Assembly: GCA_016199015.1 (NCBI GenBank)
Contig: JACQHN010000249.1
Location: 1-11,348, forward strand
Source of the DNA: Nitrospira defluvii
Lineage (GTDB): Bacteria > Nitrospirota > Nitrospiria > Nitrospirales > Nitrospiraceae
Direction of reading: 5' to 3'
DNA: 11,348 bases
In this document: positions 2,116-11,348 of the stretch, in pieces
How positions within the stretch are numbered: the stretch's first letter is position 1
Layout of the letters: every line of letters starts with the position of its first letter
Notes under the pieces: generated by a model
Database searches by the model: none
What the model was told of the DNA's origin: nothing
Seen by the model: only the letters and a program-made list of their open reading frames with translations
Translations under genes and position numbers: made by a program

Positions 2116-3105
2116 TCAGCCAACCGTGGCGCCGGTTTTCGAAAGACAACAGTGTTTGTATTTCTTGCCGCTGCCGCAGGGACAGGGGGCATTACGATCG
2201 ATACCTTGGCGACGTTTGGGCAGGGACGGGAGCAGCGCGCGGGGGTCTTGATGAAACATGTCCCGCAGCATGGCGTACAAGGCGGGATCTCGGCGTTTCA
2301 AGATGTCGGGAGACGTGAAAAAATACTCAGCCAACACCGCGAAAAACTCGTGCGAGTTCGTGTAGGCATAGGTGTTGAAGTGGGCATGATGCGCCGGTGG
2401 GCGAGCCAGTTCCCGAGCCACATACCGCACCCATTGTCGGACCACCATCCAAGGCACCTCTGGCGGGAGCCCATAGTCGCTCGCCTCTCGTTCGACCAGA
2501 TGTGCGAACTCATGGACCCCCACATTCTGCTTGCCTGAGGGATGGGCGAATCCCGCCAGGAGAGCCGGCTTAGACAGAATCATCACCCCGCTCAAATGGT
2601 GCAGGCCGACCATCCCCAGCATGGCCGCATCGGACCCCTTGGCGCTTTGGTAGTCGTCGTCGAAGGCGTCCGGATAGATCAGCACCTCTCGCAGCCGGTG
2701 GTATTCCCAGTCGTGGAAGCCGAAGATGGGGATCACCGCACTCGCCGCCACTAGGACCCGAACCGTCTCGTCGATCTCCGTGCGAATGCCCGTGATCCGA
2801 ACCTCGTTGAGAAAAACCTGCACCAGCTGCCGGAACCGCGCCTTTCCCTCCGCATCCAGCGCGGCGAAGAATGCCACGCGCGCGCGTAGAATCTGCTCCC
2901 AGTCGTCGGGAAACGGCTGCTGCATGACCGCCAGACGCCGGAGACAGCGGCACCGCAGCAGCCAGTAGGTGAGCGGACTGAGTCCCAGCATGAGCCATAG
3001 AGGAGCAGCGAGCCAGCCCCAAAAACCTGTTGCCATGGCCACCAAAGCCGCGGCGGCGAGAGCCTGCCGCTGGGTCCGACGATTGATCTCCGGCGTCACA
3101 AGCAT
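2116..3105 (-). CDS. MtfA-family (M90) zinc peptidase with membrane anchor and C-terminal SEC-C motif
   Basis: A 329-residue protein. Residues about 16-50 are strongly hydrophobic with one or two membrane-spanning stretches, which E. coli MtfA lacks. The M90 core follows: HEFAH at 198-202 supplies two zinc ligands and the catalytic glutamate, and the AEYFF segment (E260) fits the third ligand of the family. The C-terminus (about 306-320) is a SEC-C zinc motif, CPCGSGKKYKHCC, with cysteines at 308, 310, 319 and 320. E. coli MtfA is about 265 residues, is an aminopeptidase and binds the glucose repressor Mlc; SEC-C motifs usually bind metal and assist protein or ribosome contacts. A membrane-tethered peptidase facing the cytoplasm is my inference. 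A ribosome-binding AGGAAA lies about 10 bases before the ATG. It is divergent from the WYL regulator. Confidence 0.85.
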   Translation of the reverse strand: MLVTPEINRRTQRQALAAAALVAMATGFWGWLAAPLWLMLGLSPLTYWLLRCRCLRRLAVMQQPFPDDWEQILRARVAFFAALDAEGKARFRQLVQVFLNEVRITGIRTEIDETVRVLVAASAVIPIFGFHDWEYHRLREVLIYPDAFDDDYQSAKGSDAAMLGMVGLHHLSGVMILSKPALLAGFAHPSGKQNVGVHEFAHLVEREASDYGLPPEVPWMVVRQWVRYVARELARPPAHHAHFNTYAYTNSHEFFAVLAEYFFTSPDILKRRDPALYAMLRDMFHQDPRALLPSLPKRRQGIDRNAPCPCGSGKKYKHCCLSKTGATVG

Positions 3106-3417: not shown

Positions 3418-4407
3418 ATGCCGCGCAACGATCAGGCTGTCCGTCTGTTGGTCGTCCTGAAGCAGCTGGAAGCTTCGCGGCAGGGCTTGACGTTGGAGCA
3501 ACTGGCCGAATCCCTCGCACCTGGTTCCACCCGGCATCTTCGCACCCTTCGTCGCGATCTTGCCGCGTTGGAAGAAGCCGGCTATCCCTTGGTCACCGAG
3601 CGAATCAACGGCCACACCTGCTGGCGGCTCATGGAGGGATTTCGCAATGTCCCTGGGCTGCGGTTCTCTCCCTCCGAACTGATGGCGCTCACCTTCAGCC
3701 GCCGGCTCATCACCCCGCTCGAAGGCACCGAACTTCACACCTCGTTGCAATCGGCGCTCGGCAAGGCCGCTGCCGCACTTCCGCCGCAAGGTGTCGCGTT
3801 GGTCCAGCAGCTCGACGGCACGTTTAGCGTCGGACTCGGGCCGCACAAACGTTATCGACAACATCGCGACACCATCGATCGGCTGACCAGGGCCATCGCC
3901 GACAAGACCACCATTCAAGTGCGCTATGACTCCGCGTCGCGCGGCCGGATTACCAGGCGGGAAGTCGATCCCTATCGGCTGTGGTATGCCACCGGCGGCC
4001 TCTACCTCATCGGCTACTGTCACTTGCGGAGCGAACCGCGCATGTTTGCCGTGGAGCGCATCAAGTCCGTCACGCCCACCGACCATCCCTACCAGATCCC
4101 ATTGCACTTCGACCTCGACGCCTTCGTCCAAGACGCGCTCACGGTCATGCGCGGGCCACGCATCGAGGTGGAGCTGGAATTCGACCGAGCGACGGCAGCC
4201 TGGGTCAAGGATCGGGTGTGGCACGACACGCAGCAGAGCAAGCGAGTGAAGAATGGTGGCTTGCGCATGACGCTGTCGGTGGCCGACACGAGGGAACTGG
4301 TTGGGTGGGTTCTCAGCTTCGGGAGTGGGGTGAAGGTGCTCAAGCCGGAATCATTGGCTGCGAGGGTCGCAGAGGAGGCTCGACGAATAGTCGCACAGAG
4401 CGAGTGA
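3418..4407 (+). CDS. WYL-domain transcription regulator
   Basis: A 329-residue DNA-binding regulator. Residues about 5-60 form a winged helix-turn-helix of the HTH_11/DeoR kind, with the recognition helix around STRHLRTLRRDLAALEEAG. Residues about 150-220 are the WYL domain, with the signature RLWYATGGLYLIGYC (187-201) and the arginines of RMFAVERI (208-215). Residues about 245-325 fit the WCX C-terminal extension. WYL domains bind nucleic-acid or nucleotide ligands. Relatives include PafBC (DNA-damage response) and BrxR/CapW (repressors of phage-defence operons). The gene is separated from the following toxin-antitoxin pair by about 400 bases that hold a 26-base palindrome, which could be its operator. 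The GAGG ribosome binding site and the first in-frame ATG support the start. Ligand and targets cannot be read from the sequence. Confidence 0.9.
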   Translation: MPRNDQAVRLLVVLKQLEASRQGLTLEQLAESLAPGSTRHLRTLRRDLAALEEAGYPLVTERINGHTCWRLMEGFRNVPGLRFSPSELMALTFSRRLITPLEGTELHTSLQSALGKAAAALPPQGVALVQQLDGTFSVGLGPHKRYRQHRDTIDRLTRAIADKTTIQVRYDSASRGRITRREVDPYRLWYATGGLYLIGYCHLRSEPRMFAVERIKSVTPTDHPYQIPLHFDLDAFVQDALTVMRGPRIEVELEFDRATAAWVKDRVWHDTQQSKRVKNGGLRMTLSVADTRELVGWVLSFGSGVKVLKPESLAARVAEEARRIVAQSE

Positions 4408-4467: not shown

Positions 4468-4533
4468 GTTGAGGCCCTGTAATTGACATAACGATTCACC
4501 CCTTGTCCATTCAACAGACTGTTCGAGTGGGTG

Positions 4534-4595
4534 GCACGAGATCGGTCCGACTCAGCGCGGCGTCCGCCGCCGCCACTGTGGCCGATCTCTATGCC
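4534..4595. other. long GC-rich potential hairpin
   Basis: GAGATCGG (4538-4545) is complementary to CCGATCTC (4582-4589). Beyond a small bulge the outer bases GGCA and TGCC also pair. Inside the loop a second stem can form (GCGGC with GCCGC, around 4557-4570). It could be a structured RNA, or the remains of a mobile-element end. No T-run follows, so it is not a standard terminator. Confidence 0.3.
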
Positions 4596-4740
4596 CTGAA
4601 TCCTCCGGTAGCGAGCGCGCGTGCAACGTCTCTGGTTGGAGATGATCCACGGCCATGTCGCTGCAAATCCAGGTATCGAGTCAGAAGGTTTCTAGAACGC
4701 GCCGTTTGCTCAGGAAGATGGGTTGGGGAAAGTACATCGG

Positions 4741-4769
4741 TTGTTTCCGGACGGTCTTCAGACCATAAT
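4741..4769 (+). promoter_or_regulatory. sigma70-like promoter of the toxin-antitoxin operon with overlapping inverted repeat
   Basis: A -35 box TTGTTT (4741-4746) and a -10 box CATAAT (4764-4769) are separated by exactly 17 bases, about 45 bases before the antitoxin ATG. The inverted repeat GGTCT-TC-AGACC (4753-4764) lies in the spacer and touches the -10 box. Antitoxins of this class usually repress their own operon by binding such a palindrome, so it is a good operator candidate. Binding is inferred. Confidence 0.5.
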
Positions 4770-4813
4770 AGGAACAGGGAATATGGCTCTGGTGGCCTAA
4801 ATGAGAGGACAAG

Positions 4814-5014
4814 ATGTCGAAGGCTGAGCGAATCTTCAAAGAAGCGCAGAAACTCCCGGACACATTGGCACAAGAAGTGTTGGATTTCATCGGATACATT
4901 GAAATCAAGCATGGTCTCAGAGATCGATTCACTGAAGAATTGAAACAGGCGCAGGAGCCGGCCATGCGCCATGTGTGGGACAACCAGGAGGACGAGGTCT
5001 GGAATGGCGTGTAA
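4814..5014 (+). CDS. type II antitoxin, DUF2281-like
   Basis: A 66-residue acidic protein with the N-terminal pattern LPDTLAQEVLDFIGYIE (residues about 14-30), typical of DUF2281-type antitoxins whose N-terminus reads as a helix ending in VLDFI. The C-terminal tail MRHVWDNQEDEVWNGV, acidic with two tryptophans, is the part expected to wrap the toxin. The RBS GAGAGGAC is 3 bases or so before ATG. Its last 11 bases overlap the start of the toxin gene, the usual antitoxin-first layout that couples translation. It neutralises the downstream toxin and probably represses the operon. The short protein has no clear DNA-binding domain that I can identify, so autoregulation is uncertain. Confidence 0.8.
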   Translation: MSKAERIFKEAQKLPDTLAQEVLDFIGYIEIKHGLRDRFTEELKQAQEPAMRHVWDNQEDEVWNGV

Positions 5015-5342
5015 GCCTGGCGACCTGGTCTTGATTCCCTTTCCCTTCTCGGATTTGCAATCAACCAAGAAACGCCCGGTGATGGTCTTAACCCCACCGG
5101 ATCGGCACACCAATTTCATCGGGCTAGCCATTACCTCTGTCGAACAACAGAATCACGCTCTTCAAATCGAGCCGGCAAACTTGGTGCAAGGGGCACTCCC
5201 CAAACCCTGTTGGATCAGATGTGACAAAGTCTTTACCCTTTCCGAGAGCAGTATCGTAAAAACCTTCGGCGCCGTATCTCCCCAGACGCTGCAACGTGTG
5301 TCGCAGGGGCTCTGTTCCGTCGTCGGCTACGCTCGCAAATGA
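5004..5342 (+). CDS. PemK/MazF-family toxin (mRNA interferase)
   Basis: A 112-residue protein opening with the PemK/MazF signature: PGDLVLIPFPFSDLQ (5-19), then KKRPVMVL (22-29) and GLAITSV (40-46). Family toxins are ribonucleases that cut mRNA at short motifs. R24 and T44 sit where the catalytic arginine and threonine are expected. The start chosen is ATG 5004, overlapping the antitoxin by 11 bases; a longer in-frame start at 4971 would add 11 residues read inside the antitoxin and precede the conserved PGD motif poorly. The C-terminus (about residues 90-112, SPQTLQRVSQGLCSVVGYA) is the usual final helix. All parts expected of a working toxin are present. Role in plasmid-like maintenance of this island or in phage response is inference. 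Confidence 0.88.
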   Translation: MACKPGDLVLIPFPFSDLQSTKKRPVMVLTPPDRHTNFIGLAITSVEQQNHALQIEPANLVQGALPKPCWIRCDKVFTLSESSIVKTFGAVSPQTLQRVSQGLCSVVGYARK

Positions 5343-5591: not shown

Positions 5592-6032
5592 ATGCCGATC
5601 CCACAACTGATTCTGTGTCTGCTGTTGTGGGCATCGTTCATCACGCAGGCCCAAGCCGAAGACCTCGGCAACCTGAGCGCCAATCCATTCGATTTCAATT
5701 CCACCGCCAATCCGTTCGGGCAGGGGAGTCCTCTTGCACCGAACGGCGTGAACAATCCATTCAGTCCTTATGGCAGCCCGTTCAGCAACCAATCGGCCAC
5801 GAATCCCTTCGCCACCGACGCGCCGAAATTATACGACTCCCAGGGGAACTATCGGGGCAAACTCAGCGACAACCCTTACGATCCGGATTCGACCAGCAAC
5901 CAATTCGGGCGCTACGGCTCGCCGTTTTCTCCGGACTCACTGAACAATCCCTATGGCGCCGGAAGCCCGTTCCGGTACGACTCGCCGAAGAACCCGTATG
6001 GCCAGGGGTGGCGGATTGAGGGGAGTCGGTGA
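5592..6032 (+). CDS. secreted NPF/NPY-repeat protein
   Basis: A 146-residue exported protein of unknown function. A signal peptide covers residues 1-22, with a hydrophobic core LILCLLLWASFIT and a likely cut after AQA. The mature part is a low-complexity chain of short repeats rich in N, P, S, G and aromatic residues. NP[FY] occurs at 31, 40, 55, 71, 94, 119 and 134, with a degenerate NQF at 103. SP[FL] follows at 46, 62, 110 and 125, giving the repeating pattern D S . . NP[FY] G . . GSP[FY]. No cysteines remain in the mature chain. Proteins of this repeat type occur in many proteobacteria and others without a known role. A strong ribosome binding site, GGAGG, precedes the ATG. The protein probably acts in the periplasm or outside the cell; structure is likely extended. 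It is not recognisably tied to its neighbours. Confidence 0.8.
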   Translation: MPIPQLILCLLLWASFITQAQAEDLGNLSANPFDFNSTANPFGQGSPLAPNGVNNPFSPYGSPFSNQSATNPFATDAPKLYDSQGNYRGKLSDNPYDPDSTSNQFGRYGSPFSPDSLNNPYGAGSPFRYDSPKNPYGQGWRIEGSR

Positions 6033-6146: not shown

Positions 6147-9100
6147 ATGAATAAACACTTCTCCGGCCAACTGCGGTACTCGCCGAGCGATCTCGTTCGT
6201 TATCTCGCCTCACCGTTCGCATCCTGGATGGATCGCTACTATGTGGAGAATCCGGCTGCAGTCACTCCGGATGAGGCAACCGAGGACGCCTCCCTCATCG
6301 CGCAAACGGGCGATCGGCACGAACAGGCGGTGCTGCACGAATTCCAATCATCGGGCGCCAAGTTGGTCGAGATTCCTAAGCAGGATCCCGTCGCCGCCCG
6401 GGCCGAGACGCTGTCAGCCATCAGCGCACAGGTCCCCATCATTTATCAGGCGGCTCTGGAAAGCGGGCCATTCTTCGGATACAGCGACTTTCTGCTGCTC
6501 GATGCATCCGGGCGGTATCAGGTGTGGGATACCAAGCTGGCCCGCTCGCCCAGGCCGCATTATGCCGTTCAGCTCTGCTGTTATTCGGACATGCTCGCGG
6601 CGGTGACCGGCGCTCCGATGCCGGAAAAATTCGGCCTCATCCTCGGCGCCAAAGAGAGGATTGAATTCCGGCTCGAAGATTTCATTCACTATTATCGCCG
6701 CATCAAGACGAGTTTTCTTTCCATGCAACAGGCCTTCGCCGGCACGATGGCGGATCGCCCGGAGCCGCTGCCACGGGCTGATCACGGCCGCTGGACCTCC
6801 CACGCGGACCACTTCTTTCAGGAGACGGACCACCTCGTGCAGGTCGCCGGCATTACGGTCGGCCAGATCAAGAAGCTGAAGAGAGCCGGCATCACCACAG
6901 TGACAGACCTTGCTACAGCCTCAGGAAAAACCGTTCCCAAACTCGACACCAACTCGCTAGAGAAACTCGCCGCGCAAGCTCGCCTCCAACGGCAGACGCG
7001 CGCTGATCGGAACGAAAAACCAGAGGCTCCGCCTCGTTACGAGATGCTGCCCCAAGCCGGAGCGAACGGCGAGCCCGTGGGCCTTGCGGCGCTTCCGCTC
7101 GATCATCCCGCCGATGTCTTTTTCGACATGGAGGGGTACCCGCTGGTGGCCGGTGGATTGGAATACCTGTTTGGGGTCTGCACGCGGAACGGGCAGCCAG
7201 ACTCATGGGAGTTTACCGATTGGTGGGCACACAACCGTGATGAAGAGAAGCGCGCCTTCGAGGGCTTCGTGGACTGGGTATTCAGACGATGGCAGAGCAA
7301 CCCCGGCATGCATATCTACCATTACGCCGCGTACGAAGTCAGCGCCGTGCGGCGGCTGAGCACGCAGCACGACACCCGGCAGGATGAGGTGGATGAGCTG
7401 CTCCGGAACGGGGTCTTCGTCGATCTCTATCAGATCGTTCGCCATGGCCTGCGCATCGGCGAGGACAGCTATTCCATCAAATCGGTGGAGCGCCTCTATC
7501 GACCGAAGCGCGCCACGGAGGTGGCCACGGCCATAGACTCGATCGTCCAATATGCACGTTGGATGGAAAGCCAACAACCGGGTGACTGGCCGAGCAGCCC
7601 CATCCTGAAGGACATCCGCGACTACAACGAGGACGACTGTCGGTCCACGGCGGAGTTGTTGCAGTGGCTCAGAAAGGTGGCGGCTGAACAGAGGATCACC
7701 GCTGAAAGGCCGGCTTCCCTATCGGCACCGTCGGCGCCACGAGAGCTACCGCCGGAAGTCGTCGCGCGGCTGGATACCGCGGCAAAGCTGCGCCAGGAGG
7801 GCGACGCAGTCTCGCTCGTCCTAGCGAACGTAATCGACTTTCACCGCCGGGAAGAAAAACCCATGTGGTGGCGGATGTTCGACCGTGCCGAGGCGACGCC
7901 CGAAGCACTCCGCGACGATCCGGCTTGCATCGAGGGCGTTCAAGCCATCGGCGCTCCGATGCCCGACAAACAATCGTTCGTGCAAGCCTATCGCTTCGAT
8001 CCCTCGCAGGAATGCAAACTTGCCGCCGGTGACAAATCCAAAGTGATGTTCACTCACAACTTGGAGGCGAAGCTCACGCTGTCGTCGCTGGATACGTCCG
8101 CAGGTCGGTTGGAACTCAAGGTCGGGAAGAAGGCGCTCAGTGAAAAATTCGGAGGTGCATTTCCTCAACAAGGGGCACTACTTCCGGACGAGCATGTGCC
8201 GGCCAAAGTCATTCAGGAGGCGTTGGCTGACGTGGCTGCACGTCACCTGTCGCACGATCTCCACGCTCCGGTGGCCGCGCTCTTGAATCGCGTGCCGCCC
8301 GCGGCGCTGGTGAGTCACGCCGATGAGTCCCCAACCGAGGCCGCCATCCGGGTGGCCCGTTCAATGTCCGGCGGATGCCTGGTCATTCAGGGGCCGCCAG
8401 GCACCGGCAAGACCTTCACCGCCTCGCGAGTCATCACGGCGCTGCTGGCTGTCGGGAAGAGGGTCGGAGTCGCGTCTCACAGCCATAAGGCGGTCGTGAA
8501 CCTTCTTCTTGCCTGCGGCGAGGCCGCCAGAGCCGGCGGTGGTCAGCTCCGAGGAATGAAAGTCGGTGGCGAGGCGGAAGGGCTATTGTTCTCTTCCAAC
8601 CCCGACCTGCAATACGTACCAGACAGCAGTGGCGCCCAGGCTGCGTATCGCGGGGGAGTCGTCGGTGGAACAGCCTGGCTCTTTACCCGACCCGAGTGGG
8701 AAGGCGCGCTTGATTTCCTATTTATCGATGAAGCCGGGCAGGTGGCCCTGGCCAACGCCATCGCAATGGCGCGATGCGCGAAAAACCTGGTGCTCCTCGG
8801 TGACCAGATGCAGCTCGAACAACCAGTGCAAGGGTCCCATCCGGGCGATGCGGGGTTGTCCGCCCTGCAATATGCCCTCAAGGACATGGACGCCAGCCGG
8901 CCCGATGCGCCCGTCTTCCATGCCGTCGTACCGCCGGATGCGGGGTTATTTCTCGGCGAATCCCGCCGGATGCATCCATCGGTCTGTCGCTTCATTTCCG
9001 AGAGCATCTACGGAGGACGTCTCGGTTCACATCCCGACTGCAACCGGCAGCGGATCGCCGTCCCATCGGGCCCACCGGGCCTCATCACGCGCGAAAGCGG

Positions 9101-9581
9101 GATCGTCTTCAGCGGCGTCGAGCATGACGGCAACATCCAGCAGAGTGACGAAGAGGTGACACGGGTTCTGGCGATCTATCAGGAGCTGCAGGGGCGTCTT
9201 TATACGGCGAAGGATGGTGCCACGAAGCCGCTGGCGCTGGAGCACTTTTTGTTCATCGCCCCCTACAATGCCCAGGTCCGCGCACTTCAAAGTGCCCTGC
9301 CCAGCGGCGCGCGCGTCGGGAGCGTCGACAGGTTTCAAGGGCAGGAAGCCCCGGTCTGTATTCTTTCCCTCTGTTCCAGTTACGGCGAATATGGGTCCCG
9401 CGGGCTGGCCTTCATTCTCGACCGCAATCGGGTGAACGTGGCCATTTCCCGCGCTCAATGTTTGGCGGTGGTGGTGGCCGATCCCCGCACAGCCGGCGCG
9501 ATCCCCGGTTCCCTGGACGAAATGATGTTACTCAATCTGTTCTGCAAATTGGTGGATGCGGCCGTCGCTGCCTGCAGGTGA
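6147..9581 (+). CDS. TM0106-type RecB-like nuclease / RNase H-like exonuclease / SF1 helicase fusion
   Basis: A 1144-residue DNA-processing protein with three enzymatic parts. (1) A RecB-like PD-(D/E)xK nuclease, about residues 50-150: GDRHE (55-59), YSDFL (D114), WDTK (D128, K130) and QLCCY (142-146), all expected catalytic positions present. A helix-hairpin-helix-like segment follows (about 224-260). (2) An RNase H-like 3'-5' exonuclease domain, about 320-505: DME (D327, E329), YHYAAYE (391-397) and YNEDD (493-497). (3) A superfamily 1 helicase of the Upf1/DNA2 type: Walker A GPPGTGKT (749-756), DEAG (861-864), GDQMQLEQ (885-892), ESRRMHP (938-944), VDRFQGQE (1060-1067) and NVAISRA (1097-1103). 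The length fits the TM0106 family. A GAGGG ribosome binding site precedes the ATG. The likely role is ATP-driven end resection or invader-DNA degradation; it may be repair or defence. Its placement beside a type I restriction gene and a toxin-antitoxin pair favours defence, by context only. Confidence 0.88.
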   Translation: MNKHFSGQLRYSPSDLVRYLASPFASWMDRYYVENPAAVTPDEATEDASLIAQTGDRHEQAVLHEFQSSGAKLVEIPKQDPVAARAETLSAISAQVPIIYQAALESGPFFGYSDFLLLDASGRYQVWDTKLARSPRPHYAVQLCCYSDMLAAVTGAPMPEKFGLILGAKERIEFRLEDFIHYYRRIKTSFLSMQQAFAGTMADRPEPLPRADHGRWTSHADHFFQETDHLVQVAGITVGQIKKLKRAGITTVTDLATASGKTVPKLDTNSLEKLAAQARLQRQTRADRNEKPEAPPRYEMLPQAGANGEPVGLAALPLDHPADVFFDMEGYPLVAGGLEYLFGVCTRNGQPDSWEFTDWWAHNRDEEKRAFEGFVDWVFRRWQSNPGMHIYHYAAYEVSAVRRLSTQHDTRQDEVDELLRNGVFVDLYQIVRHGLRIGEDSYSIKSVERLYRPKRATEVATAIDSIVQYARWMESQQPGDWPSSPILKDIRDYNEDDCRSTAELLQWLRKVAAEQRITAERPASLSAPSAPRELPPEVVARLDTAAKLRQEGDAVSLVLANVIDFHRREEKPMWWRMFDRAEATPEALRDDPACIEGVQAIGAPMPDKQSFVQAYRFDPSQECKLAAGDKSKVMFTHNLEAKLTLSSLDTSAGRLELKVGKKALSEKFGGAFPQQGALLPDEHVPAKVIQEALADVAARHLSHDLHAPVAALLNRVPPAALVSHADESPTEAAIRVARSMSGGCLVIQGPPGTGKTFTASRVITALLAVGKRVGVASHSHKAVVNLLLACGEAARAGGGQLRGMKVGGEAEGLLFSSNPDLQYVPDSSGAQAAYRGGVVGGTAWLFTRPEWEGALDFLFIDEAGQVALANAIAMARCAKNLVLLGDQMQLEQPVQGSHPGDAGLSALQYALKDMDASRPDAPVFHAVVPPDAGLFLGESRRMHPSVCRFISESIYGGRLGSHPDCNRQRIAVPSGPPGLITRESGIVFSGVEHDGNIQQSDEEVTRVLAIYQELQGRLYTAKDGATKPLALEHFLFIAPYNAQVRALQSALPSGARVGSVDRFQGQEAPVCILSLCSSYGEYGSRGLAFILDRNRVNVAISRAQCLAVVVADPRTAGAIPGSLDEMMLLNLFCKLVDAAVAACR

Positions 9582-9717: not shown

Positions 9718-9750
9718 CTGATCCAAACCAACGCAATCTTGAGCTGATTG

Positions 9751-11348
9751 ATGCCCACGCCTGAGGAGAGAGCCCGCCAGAAAATCGACGAGATGCTGGT
9801 CAGTGCGGGCTGGGTCGTCCAGGACTACAGGCAGGCACATATCCACGCAGGCAGGGGAGTCGTCTTACGAAACTTCCCACTGACCAGCGGCCACGGATTT
9901 GCCGATTACCTGCTCTACATCGATGGTAAAGCTGCAGGAATAGTTGAAGCGAAGAAAGAGGGCGTCACCCTGACGGGTGTTGAAGTTCAATCAGAGAAAT
10001 ACAGCCAAGGCCTCCCTCATGACCTCCCAGCCATCACACGCCCTTTACCGTTTCTCTATCAAAGCACCGGAGTGGAAACGAGGTGTACGAACGGCCTCGA
10101 TCCGCAACCGCGAAGCCGGCAGGTGTTCAGTTTCCATAGGCCTGAGACCTTAGCAGGTTGGGCCTCGACCATCGTAGAGAAACCGCGCGATCTCGGCGGA
10201 GCCTCTCTAGCGGCAGAGACGGCCACCACCCTGCGCGGAAAGCTCCGGCACATGCCGCAGCTTGTCACCACCGGCCTCTGGCCCGCGCAAATTACCGCGA
10301 TTACGAACTTAGAAAAGTCGATGGCTCAGGATCGTCCCCGCGCCCTCATCCAAATGGCTACCGGCAGCGGCAAGACCTTCACCGCCATCAACTTCATCTA
10401 CCGGCTTATCAAGTTTGGAGGTGCGCGCCGCGTGCTCTTCCTCGTCGACCGTGGCAACCTCGGTGACCAGACGCTCAAGGAATTCCAGCAGTACGTCTCG
10501 CCGTACAACAACTTCAAGTTCACCGAAGAGTTCATCGTCCAGCGGCTGACGGGCAACCAACTCGATACCACCGCGCGGGTCTGCATCAGCACCATTCAGC
10601 GCATGTATTCCATGCTCAAGGGGCGGGAGCTATCGGACGAGGACGAAGAAATTTCCATTGCGGGACTTGAGCAACTCAACCAAGGGATTGGGCAAAGCAG
10701 AAGGTCGTCAGACAAGGCGCGAGGCGAGCGAGCAGCGGAGTTGACAGGCTCGTCAATGAGCAGCGAAGCGACCCGAGCAACGCAGAATCACGGCTTTCTG
10801 AGAAGCCCAATCGAGCCGATTGACTACAACCCGTCGATTCCGATCGAAACCTTCGACATCATCGTCACCGACGAATGCCACCGGTCCATCTACAACCTCT
10901 GGGCGCAGGTGCTGGAATATTTCGATGCCCACCTCATCGGCCTCACCGCCACGCCCAACAAGCAGACCTTCGGCTTTTTCAATCAGAACCTGGTCATGGA
11001 ATACAACCACGAACAAGCGGTAGCTGATGGTGTCAATGTGGACTTCGATGTTTACCGCATTCGCACGCAGATCACCCAGCAAGGTGCACAAGTCGAAGCT
11101 GGGCTTTTTGTCGATCGCCGCGACCGCGAGACCCGGGCCGTGCGTTGGGAGAAGCTCGACGAAGATCTCACCTACGATGCCTCGAAGCTCGATCGGGACG
11201 TGGTCGCTGTGGATCAGATCCGCACGGTGATTCGCACGTTCAAGGAAAAGCTGTTCACCGAGATTTTTCCCGGTCGCAAGGATGTTCCCAAGACCCTGAT
11301 TTACGCTAAAGATGATTCGCACGCTGACGACATCGTGCAGATCGTGCG
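9751..11348 (+). CDS. hsdR: type I restriction enzyme R subunit, EcoEI-like HsdR (3' end outside window)
   Basis: Restriction and DNA-translocation subunit of a type I restriction-modification complex, which needs HsdM and HsdS partners, probably beyond the right edge. I read the frame without a stop from ATG 9751 to the window end (532 codons). The N-terminal nuclease has GFADYLL (D52), EAK (E66, K68) and QSEKY (Q80, Y84), the PD-(D/E)xK set with the conserved Q. The helicase has Walker A ATGSGKT (203-209), STIQRMYSMLKG (about 284-302), DECH (374-377) and LTATP (398-402). Residues about 312-355 are an extra basic, serine-rich insert encoded by a repeat element (separate entry). Family members pass here almost directly to the YNP.IPIE.FD stretch. 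The ATG is supported by family alignment (MPTPEERARQKID opening); only a weak GAG precedes it. Confidence 0.92.
   Translation, partial: MPTPEERARQKIDEMLVSAGWVVQDYRQAHIHAGRGVVLRNFPLTSGHGFADYLLYIDGKAAGIVEAKKEGVTLTGVEVQSEKYSQGLPHDLPAITRPLPFLYQSTGVETRCTNGLDPQPRSRQVFSFHRPETLAGWASTIVEKPRDLGGASLAAETATTLRGKLRHMPQLVTTGLWPAQITAITNLEKSMAQDRPRALIQMATGSGKTFTAINFIYRLIKFGGARRVLFLVDRGNLGDQTLKEFQQYVSPYNNFKFTEEFIVQRLTGNQLDTTARVCISTIQRMYSMLKGRELSDEDEEISIAGLEQLNQGIGQSRRSSDKARGERAAELTGSSMSSEATRATQNHGFLRSPIEPIDYNPSIPIETFDIIVTDECHRSIYNLWAQVLEYFDAHLIGLTATPNKQTFGFFNQNLVMEYNHEQAVADGVNVDFDVYRIRTQITQQGAQVEAGLFVDRRDRETRAVRWEKLDEDLTYDASKLDRDVVAVDQIRTVIRTFKEKLFTEIFPGRKDVPKTLIYAKDDSHADDIVQIV
10686..10812. repeat. 127-base inverted-end repeat inserted in frame in hsdR
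   Basis: GATTGGGC (10686-10693) and GCCCAATC (10805-10812) are exact inverted ends. The first positions beyond differ by a few bases, and further in AGCAGAAGG resembles the complement of the other end (CAGAAAGCC) with gaps. The inside has the stem TTGAC-AGGCTC-GTCAA (10741-10756) and words such as GGCGAGCGAGCAGCGGAG and GAGCAGCGAAGCG, with base composition unlike the neighbouring codons. Its codons read SRRSSDKARGERAAE and on, with no stop, and the restriction-enzyme frame resumes at PIDYNPSIPIE. It has the size and form of a MITE- or REP-like repeat. No transposase or target duplication is evident. Confidence 0.65.

Follow-up and report, generated by a model that had tools for sequence, protein, structure and literature searches.

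An ERIC-like hairpin element in frame within the HsdR linker of a Nitrospira type I restriction gene

In-frame capture of small palindromic repeats by protein genes is already known from Rickettsia and from enterobacteria. ERIC elements end in TA, and their description reports stop-free frames and in-frame fusions, one of which extends an amidase gene at its 3′ end (PMC2759123). Their host range is given as Enterobacteriaceae and Vibrionaceae (PMC10969869), and transcripts are reportedly destabilised by ERIC in Yersinia (PMC2229807, PMC10969869). Rickettsia palindromic elements (RPE), of 105–146 bp, are described as being tolerated in frame within conserved protein genes (PMC2229807, PMC10969869). 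QMITE1 and QMITE2 of Coxiella burnetii and the Correia elements are further small hairpin repeats with coding capacity and gene overlap (PMC5896051, PMC2229807). Titles and abstract openings of the papers listed by searches of open-licence texts contained nothing on ERIC-like repeats in Nitrospira or on a MITE inside hsdR. With the locus described here, an ERIC-like superfamily reaches Nitrospira, where nearly all of the genomes searched hold the family, and a single protein site allows the presence and absence of the insert to be compared across many related genes.

The window, that is, the whole stretch of 11,348 nucleotides that was analysed (contig C154), belongs to a draft genome of 3.1 Mb in 600 contigs that is 67% complete. 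Its last gene is hsdR (9748..11346, + strand), encoding the R subunit of a type I restriction system. The gene matches HSDR_N, ResIII and SWI2_SNF2 and is truncated by the contig end, with 533 amino acids seen, and its nearest named relatives are Nitrospira. A close relative of the truncated gene, L002 (997 aa), also has EcoEI_R_C; the window protein and L002 were assigned to HsdR on the basis of an N-terminal nuclease domain, an SF2 motor and an EcoEI_R C-terminus. The gene following hsdR in L002 gave a weak Methylase_S match under the cut-off of that family. In the window, the helicase motifs are the Walker A sequence MATGSGKT (10354..10377, + strand), the DECH box (TDECH; 10867..10881, + strand) and a TATP motif (10945-10956). 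As the original prediction had it, a 127-base stretch with exact 8-base inverted ends and a hairpin lies between the ATP-binding motif and the DECH box, the frame stays open, and the flanking helicase motifs are undamaged. This ERIC-like hairpin element occupies 10686..10812 (+ strand), where it contributes about 42 HsdR residues in frame.

The element is an imperfect palindrome whose first 8 nt (GATTGGGC) and last 8 nt (GCCCAATC) are exact reverse complements, and its 23-nt arm pair is 74% complementary. Helix 1 joins the 5′ terminal arm (10686..10693) to the 3′ terminal arm (10805..10812), and among seven hsdR inserts both sides were changed in four of its eight pairs. A 3 × 3 internal loop separates it from helix 2 (5′ arm, 10697..10708; 3′ arm, 10790..10801), and an apical hairpin, GTTGA...TCAAT, lies at 10740..10757; all these features are on the + strand. 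The + strand of 10684-10818 folded with −52.6 kcal/mol (z = −3.29), a stability equalled by none of 200 shuffles, and the − strand fold was ordinary (z = −0.89). The 43 residues encoded by the element include eight Ser, six Arg and one Lys. At the termini of the hsdR copy TA ends were not present and no target duplication was established, and a search of window positions 10000-11348 against Rfam returned nothing at E ≤ 1. Being small, with inverted ends and without a transposase of its own, the element has the traits of a MITE, and its family is probably a non-autonomous mobile element. The 3′ outer arm (window 10800-10815) resembles codons (e.g. AAGAAGCCGGAG) that are native to insert-free hsdR genes; therefore, the 3′ border of the element is only approximate.

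The HsdR linker was spanned by all alignments of 196 distinct rows, among which 176 had a short linker, 16 carried the insert, and four had another repeat or a longer linker. Identical rows, P0125, the window duplicates L082, L083 and P0001, and rows with less than 70% of columns (the carriers P0004, P0006 and P0007 among them) had been removed from this count, and L060 and L061 were scored as lacking an insert by linker length despite a REP-like unit there. A similar picture was obtained for 80 related hsdR loci of named genomes: 73 were short, one (L033) had another long linker, and six carried the insert, namely L002, L007 and L022 in Nitrospirota and L026, L034 and L045 in Gammaproteobacteria. 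The short linker is thus the norm of the family, as had been proposed, and most of the homologues examined are without the inserted residues. The carriers have the insert in one common frame and at one place, give or take a few codons, and its 5′ junction shifts by a few codons. The gain over insert-free homologues is 120–129 nt (123 nt in the window), adding about 41–43 amino acids. Long open carrier genes with both N- and C-terminal HsdR domains are those of L002 and L007 (1002 aa); the 928-aa ORF of L026 does not match HSDR_N, and L045 is frameshifted. When the insert-encoded part of HsdR was searched against proteins of 293–933 aa, eight of 48 candidates matched, among them the window's own protein, and each of the eight bears HsdR/helicase domains, and the peptide pattern SRRSSDKARGERAAEL..MSS.AT of the insert was recognisable across phyla. 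The stretch 10686-10812 is a true insertion into the HsdR linker. AlphaFold models with the insert (mean pLDDT 55.4; 24–29 in the insert region) and without it (51.2) were too poor for a comparison of the helicase in the two forms.

BLAST found no second copy of the insert in its own genome, and among 100 genomes (own included) it found one other match, in G014 and within hsdR (L083). BLAST of the insert against plasmids and phages gave no match, and the insert was absent from viral contigs by exact pattern search. Diverged copies were uncovered with two covariance models, R1 built from seven hsdR inserts (window copy included) and R2 from 48 copies, all outside hsdR; the genome searches scored part of the candidates, and the copy counts are lower bounds. 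R1 gave the window insert 146.6 bits, the window being in its training set, and at E ≤ 0.1 it returned at least three matches in the own genome (insert included), among them diverged full-length copies. R2 scored the insert (10684-10813) at 118.8 bits, with an own-genome E value of 4.5e-32. At E ≤ 0.01 it found at least 37 matches in that genome, insert included, L095 and L101 among them having belonged to the R2 training set. The expectation of other copies in the host genome was therefore borne out by at least 36 further R2 matches, although BLAST had found none. At E ≤ 1e-8, R2 detected the family in 54 of 61 genomes searched from the window's order (own included), and 28 of the 29 from its own genus were positive. 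With R1, copies turned up in 49 of the 274 genomes searched from the class of G103 (E ≤ 1e-6), and four were found in 395 Nitrospirota genomes at E ≤ 1e-12, two of hsdR type and two outside hsdR. The insert belongs to a real dispersed repeat family.

The window also holds 31 inverted 8-mer pairs that span 100–150 bases; therefore, the 8-base ends alone carry little evidential weight. Their abundance and the failure of BLAST to find a second copy would suit a chance palindrome in an HsdR linker that expanded naturally, with no mobile element involved. However, the covariance models give full-length matches at other places in this genome and in the majority of the relatives searched. We regard this explanation as refuted by the R2 matches in the own genome and in the genomes of the order, and its probability as negligible.

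The dispersed copies share a common core, and their arms vary widely from copy to copy while self-complementarity is kept. In an alignment of 48 copies that had been fitted to the structure, 92.4% of pair cells were paired, against 55.8% in column shuffles and 38–42% when slid; in the same structure-fitted alignment, 34 of 36 pairs showed changes on both sides. Of 50 dispersed copies, only L121 and L122 are flanked on either side by Pfam domains of the ORF that contains them; the other spanning ORFs that were scanned gave no Pfam match, apart from L124, where the match is confined to sequence beyond the element. No donor outside hsdR closely like the insert was found, the best other scores being 83.5 bits with R2 (in relatives) and 83.2 bits with R1. 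The hsdR insert may derive from the proteobacterial or from the Nitrospira subfamily, whose best identities to the window insert were 67% and 64%, respectively.

An E. coli ERIC (L142), located through ERIC primer letters, was matched by R2 along its full length, with 32.2 bits and an E value of 3e-7 over 56,760 bases; L141, the corresponding locus of a second strain, reached only E = 0.0015. In profile alignments the E. coli ERIC (L142) scored 15.6 bits and Salmonella SeRU-1 scored 22.3 bits, in one orientation only, against maxima of 5.1 and 6.3 bits, respectively, in 250 pair-preserving shuffles of each. Two further enterobacterial repeats, RU-2 and RU-3, gave −2.5 and −10.4 in their better orientation. 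By sequence only, nhmmer did not detect ERIC significantly. Among 47 dispersed copies, 16 have TA in symmetrical outer position, fewer than have AG (24), GA (20) or GG (20) there; therefore, the TA ends expected for the family are unconvincing. Like ERIC / IRU / RU-1, the element is a 127-bp imperfect palindrome with inverted ends and a directional core around the apical stem, and like ERIC the Nitrospira family is dispersed and multicopy, as the R2 counts above indicate. Unlike ERIC, it occurs in Nitrospirota and in the class of G103, its arms differ, and its hsdR copy is without TA ends. Since the likeness lies in core and architecture and the two are distant by sequence, we named the family ERIC-like and did not file it as ERIC. 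In addition, the fusions in the available part of the ERIC description are not of one linker common to several phyla (PMC2759123). The RPE share in-frame insertion inside conserved protein genes (here hsdR and a YoaA/DinG-like helicase gene), but by the descriptions they are set apart as elements of Rickettsia, whereas here a single gene site is involved across phyla and the ERIC-like insert apparently moves between hsdR genes. QMITE and Correia elements differ in length from the 127-nt element, and QMITE lie mainly at the 3′ ends of genes of known function, unlike the insert in the hsdR linker.

In the hsdR frame, the common apical form GTAAATGAGC would give TAA. The hsdR copies instead have GTCAATG or G(G/C)CAATG, with a matching change on the partner strand, and some dispersed copies are also without the apical TAA (e.g. 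L132). At least one stop-free frame was present in 43 of 47 dispersed copies, a modest excess over shuffles (mean 37.1, highest 43). A second in-frame copy was found in the middle of a YoaA/DinG-like helicase gene, at L121:1501-1630 (G296) and L122:1501-1630 (G158), which represent one gene in two related genomes; a relative (G700) is without the copy, and its own frame shifts near the end. The reading of a repeat element in frame within the HsdR linker is supported by the 16 carrier rows, the R2 match and the open frame.

We propose that the hsdR linker was once entered, in a stop-free frame, by one member of this widespread family of ERIC-like hairpins, and that the copy would then have been read as part of the HsdR protein, which presumably tolerated it. 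After this founding event, the insert may have been transferred laterally and repeatedly between hsdR genes with little flank, by short-tract recombination or by re-insertion, and may also have been lost. We consider this course of events, a founding insertion followed by lateral passage and losses, fairly probable. One founding insertion is favoured because the hsdR inserts as one clade were not rejected (AU p = 0.219) and because the carriers share place and frame. Against this, two changes were counted for hsdR on the free insert tree, and Nitrospira dispersed copies were nested among the inserts.

Simple descent is not favoured. On a quick tree of HsdR (123 of the 196 rows, linker omitted), the insert label required 12 changes, at least nine of them forced by starred branches; shuffled labels required 15.3 changes on average, and this clustering of the real label beyond chance speaks against lateral passage. 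A single clade of the seven Nitrospirota carriers was rejected (AU p = 9e-33; quick tree of 32 rows). In all six Nitrospira pairs the dS of the insert was low (0.067–0.187) relative to that of the 5′ flank (0.455–1.255) and of the 3′ flank (0.292–1.056), and Fisher tests on synonymous differences between insert and flank, which covered 11 of 21 pairs, gave p values of 1.4e-6 to 0.0034 for these six. For L001 and L022, for example, dS was 0.068 in the insert, 1.145 in the 5′ flank and 0.552 in the 3′ flank (p = 1.4e-6). Identity falls at the insert edges in the comparisons of L022 and L007. The insert looks younger than the gene splits in most Nitrospira comparisons, and its low dS could come partly from a hairpin constraint on synonymous sites, without movement.

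A single ancient insertion, domesticated as a protein linker and passed on by vertical descent with many precise losses, would also explain that carriers share place and frame and that the peptide pattern is recognisable across phyla. In the three gammaproteobacterial pairs the inserts diverge like their own flanks (no difference, p = 0.21–0.64), as such descent would have it; of two cross-phylum pairs, insert and flank differ in one (p = 0.0083) and not in the other (p = 0.16). The gene-tree sisters L001 and L002 have the insert and its near flank in common, with no drop of identity at the 5′ edge (the adjoining 14 codons are 100% identical, the insert 92–98%), and here the insert was probably inherited together with the gene, which makes lateral passage somewhat less and vertical descent somewhat more credible. 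The wider flanks of this pair are more diverged than the insert (Fisher p = 9e-4). However, across the six Nitrospira pairs the insert dS is 4–17 times below that of the 5′ flank and 2–9 times below that of the 3′ flank, and at least nine forced changes on the gene tree and a weak peptide constraint also argue against vertical descent, which we consider unlikely.

Repeated site-targeted transposition, in which a subfamily homes to the linker by independent in-frame insertions, would fit the fall of identity at the insert edges in several pairs, the patchy distribution of carriers, the uptake of unrelated repeats by the same linker, and a hairpin that part of the comparisons show to be preserved, as it would be if the mobile element were active. 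Yet random insertion predicts both strands and several frames, and the carriers share one. Furthermore, no free copy of the subfamily was found outside hsdR in the model-searched genomes, and the hsdR copy is without TA ends. We retain such homing as a tentative and rather unlikely alternative to a founding insertion with lateral passage.

At the protein level, dN/dS of the insert was 0.43–1.02 in 20 of 21 pairs, the exception being L002–L022 with 0.08, and the flanks gave 0.02–0.34. The insert peptide thus evolves loosely, under weak protein-level constraint, and its continued presence most likely makes almost no difference to the fitness of the HsdR protein. The original prediction that the repeat had been domesticated as a protein linker found little support, given this weak constraint and the patchy occurrence of the insert on the gene tree, and it is further undercut by an insert that, in most Nitrospira comparisons, appears to postdate the gene splits.

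The hairpin itself may have an effect on mRNA or DNA and is a candidate in this respect. When L034 was compared with the window fold, all 19 outer pairs were kept despite 13 differences inside the stem, which was matched by none of 1000 neutral simulations under JC and by none under a transition-rich model. L026 and L045 keep 16 of 19 pairs (27 and 13 of 1000 simulations under JC; with the transition-rich model, 106 and 62 of 1000), and the 16 of 19 outer pairs kept by L007 equal the chance expectation. Synonymous resampling gave a fold as strong in at most seven of 300 trials for six of the seven inserts, and in 23 of 300 for L022. An earlier consensus-based retention test (237 of 252 pairs, 0 of 2000 simulations) was biased, its pairs having been chosen on the same alignment, and was replaced. 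Some comparisons therefore show clear retention of the hairpin, and for others it is unproven. The complete retention in L034, the folds that exceed synonymous resampling, and the destabilisation of Yersinia transcripts by ERIC, as reported (PMC2229807, PMC10969869), would be in line with a hairpin that is maintained because it serves hsdR, for instance through cleavage by RNase III/RNase E or through slowed translation that limits restriction. We find such a function doubtful, as retention in the remaining pairs is weaker or fails to reach significance, particularly with the transition-rich model, separate intact arrivals or arm-templating-arm would yield the same pattern, and most hsdR genes examined are without the hairpin.

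The same HsdR linker has also received other repeats. L060 and L061 carry there an in-frame palindromic REP-like unit of about 40 nt, which has at least 53 and at least 23 matches in the respective genomes, the linker copy included. It is like the ERIC-like element in being an in-frame palindromic unit at this site, and this REP / BIME-like unit differs in its length, its unrelated sequence, and the occurrence of some copies in inverted pairs. The linker of L033 holds another palindromic repeat, one part of which has at least seven further copies, and similar-looking linker peptides occur in P0083, P0085 and P0104 (protein rows only). Repeat-like peptides in the linkers of these six (L033, L060, L061, P0083, P0085 and P0104) include PSPSGRGAGGEG and PPLQGEGRGG. 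A wider scenario, in which an ERIC-like hsdR-linker subfamily crosses species and phyla as a nomadic coding hairpin, the hairpin throttles hsdR, and the linker also takes unrelated repeats (REP-like and others), is speculative and in our judgement improbable. The linker site offers a direct test between spread by gene exchange, re-insertion and hairpin selection. It also calls for caution, in that an unusual loop in a restriction helicase may turn out to be a translated repeat.

Upstream of hsdR, the window encodes several other proteins. Just before hsdR, at 6147-9581, lies the gene of a 1144-aa protein with RNase_H_2 and AAA_11/12 domains, and a 1144-aa ORF is likewise found upstream of hsdR in L002. 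A PemK/MazF-like toxin gene (4971-5342) is preceded by an ORF (4503-4943) without a Pfam match. Further upstream are a gene for an M90 metallopeptidase with an SEC-C motif (2116-3105, − strand) and one for a WYL-domain regulator (3418-4407, + strand). A small protein encoded at 5592-6032, without a Pfam match, contains repeated NPYG/NPF-like motifs.
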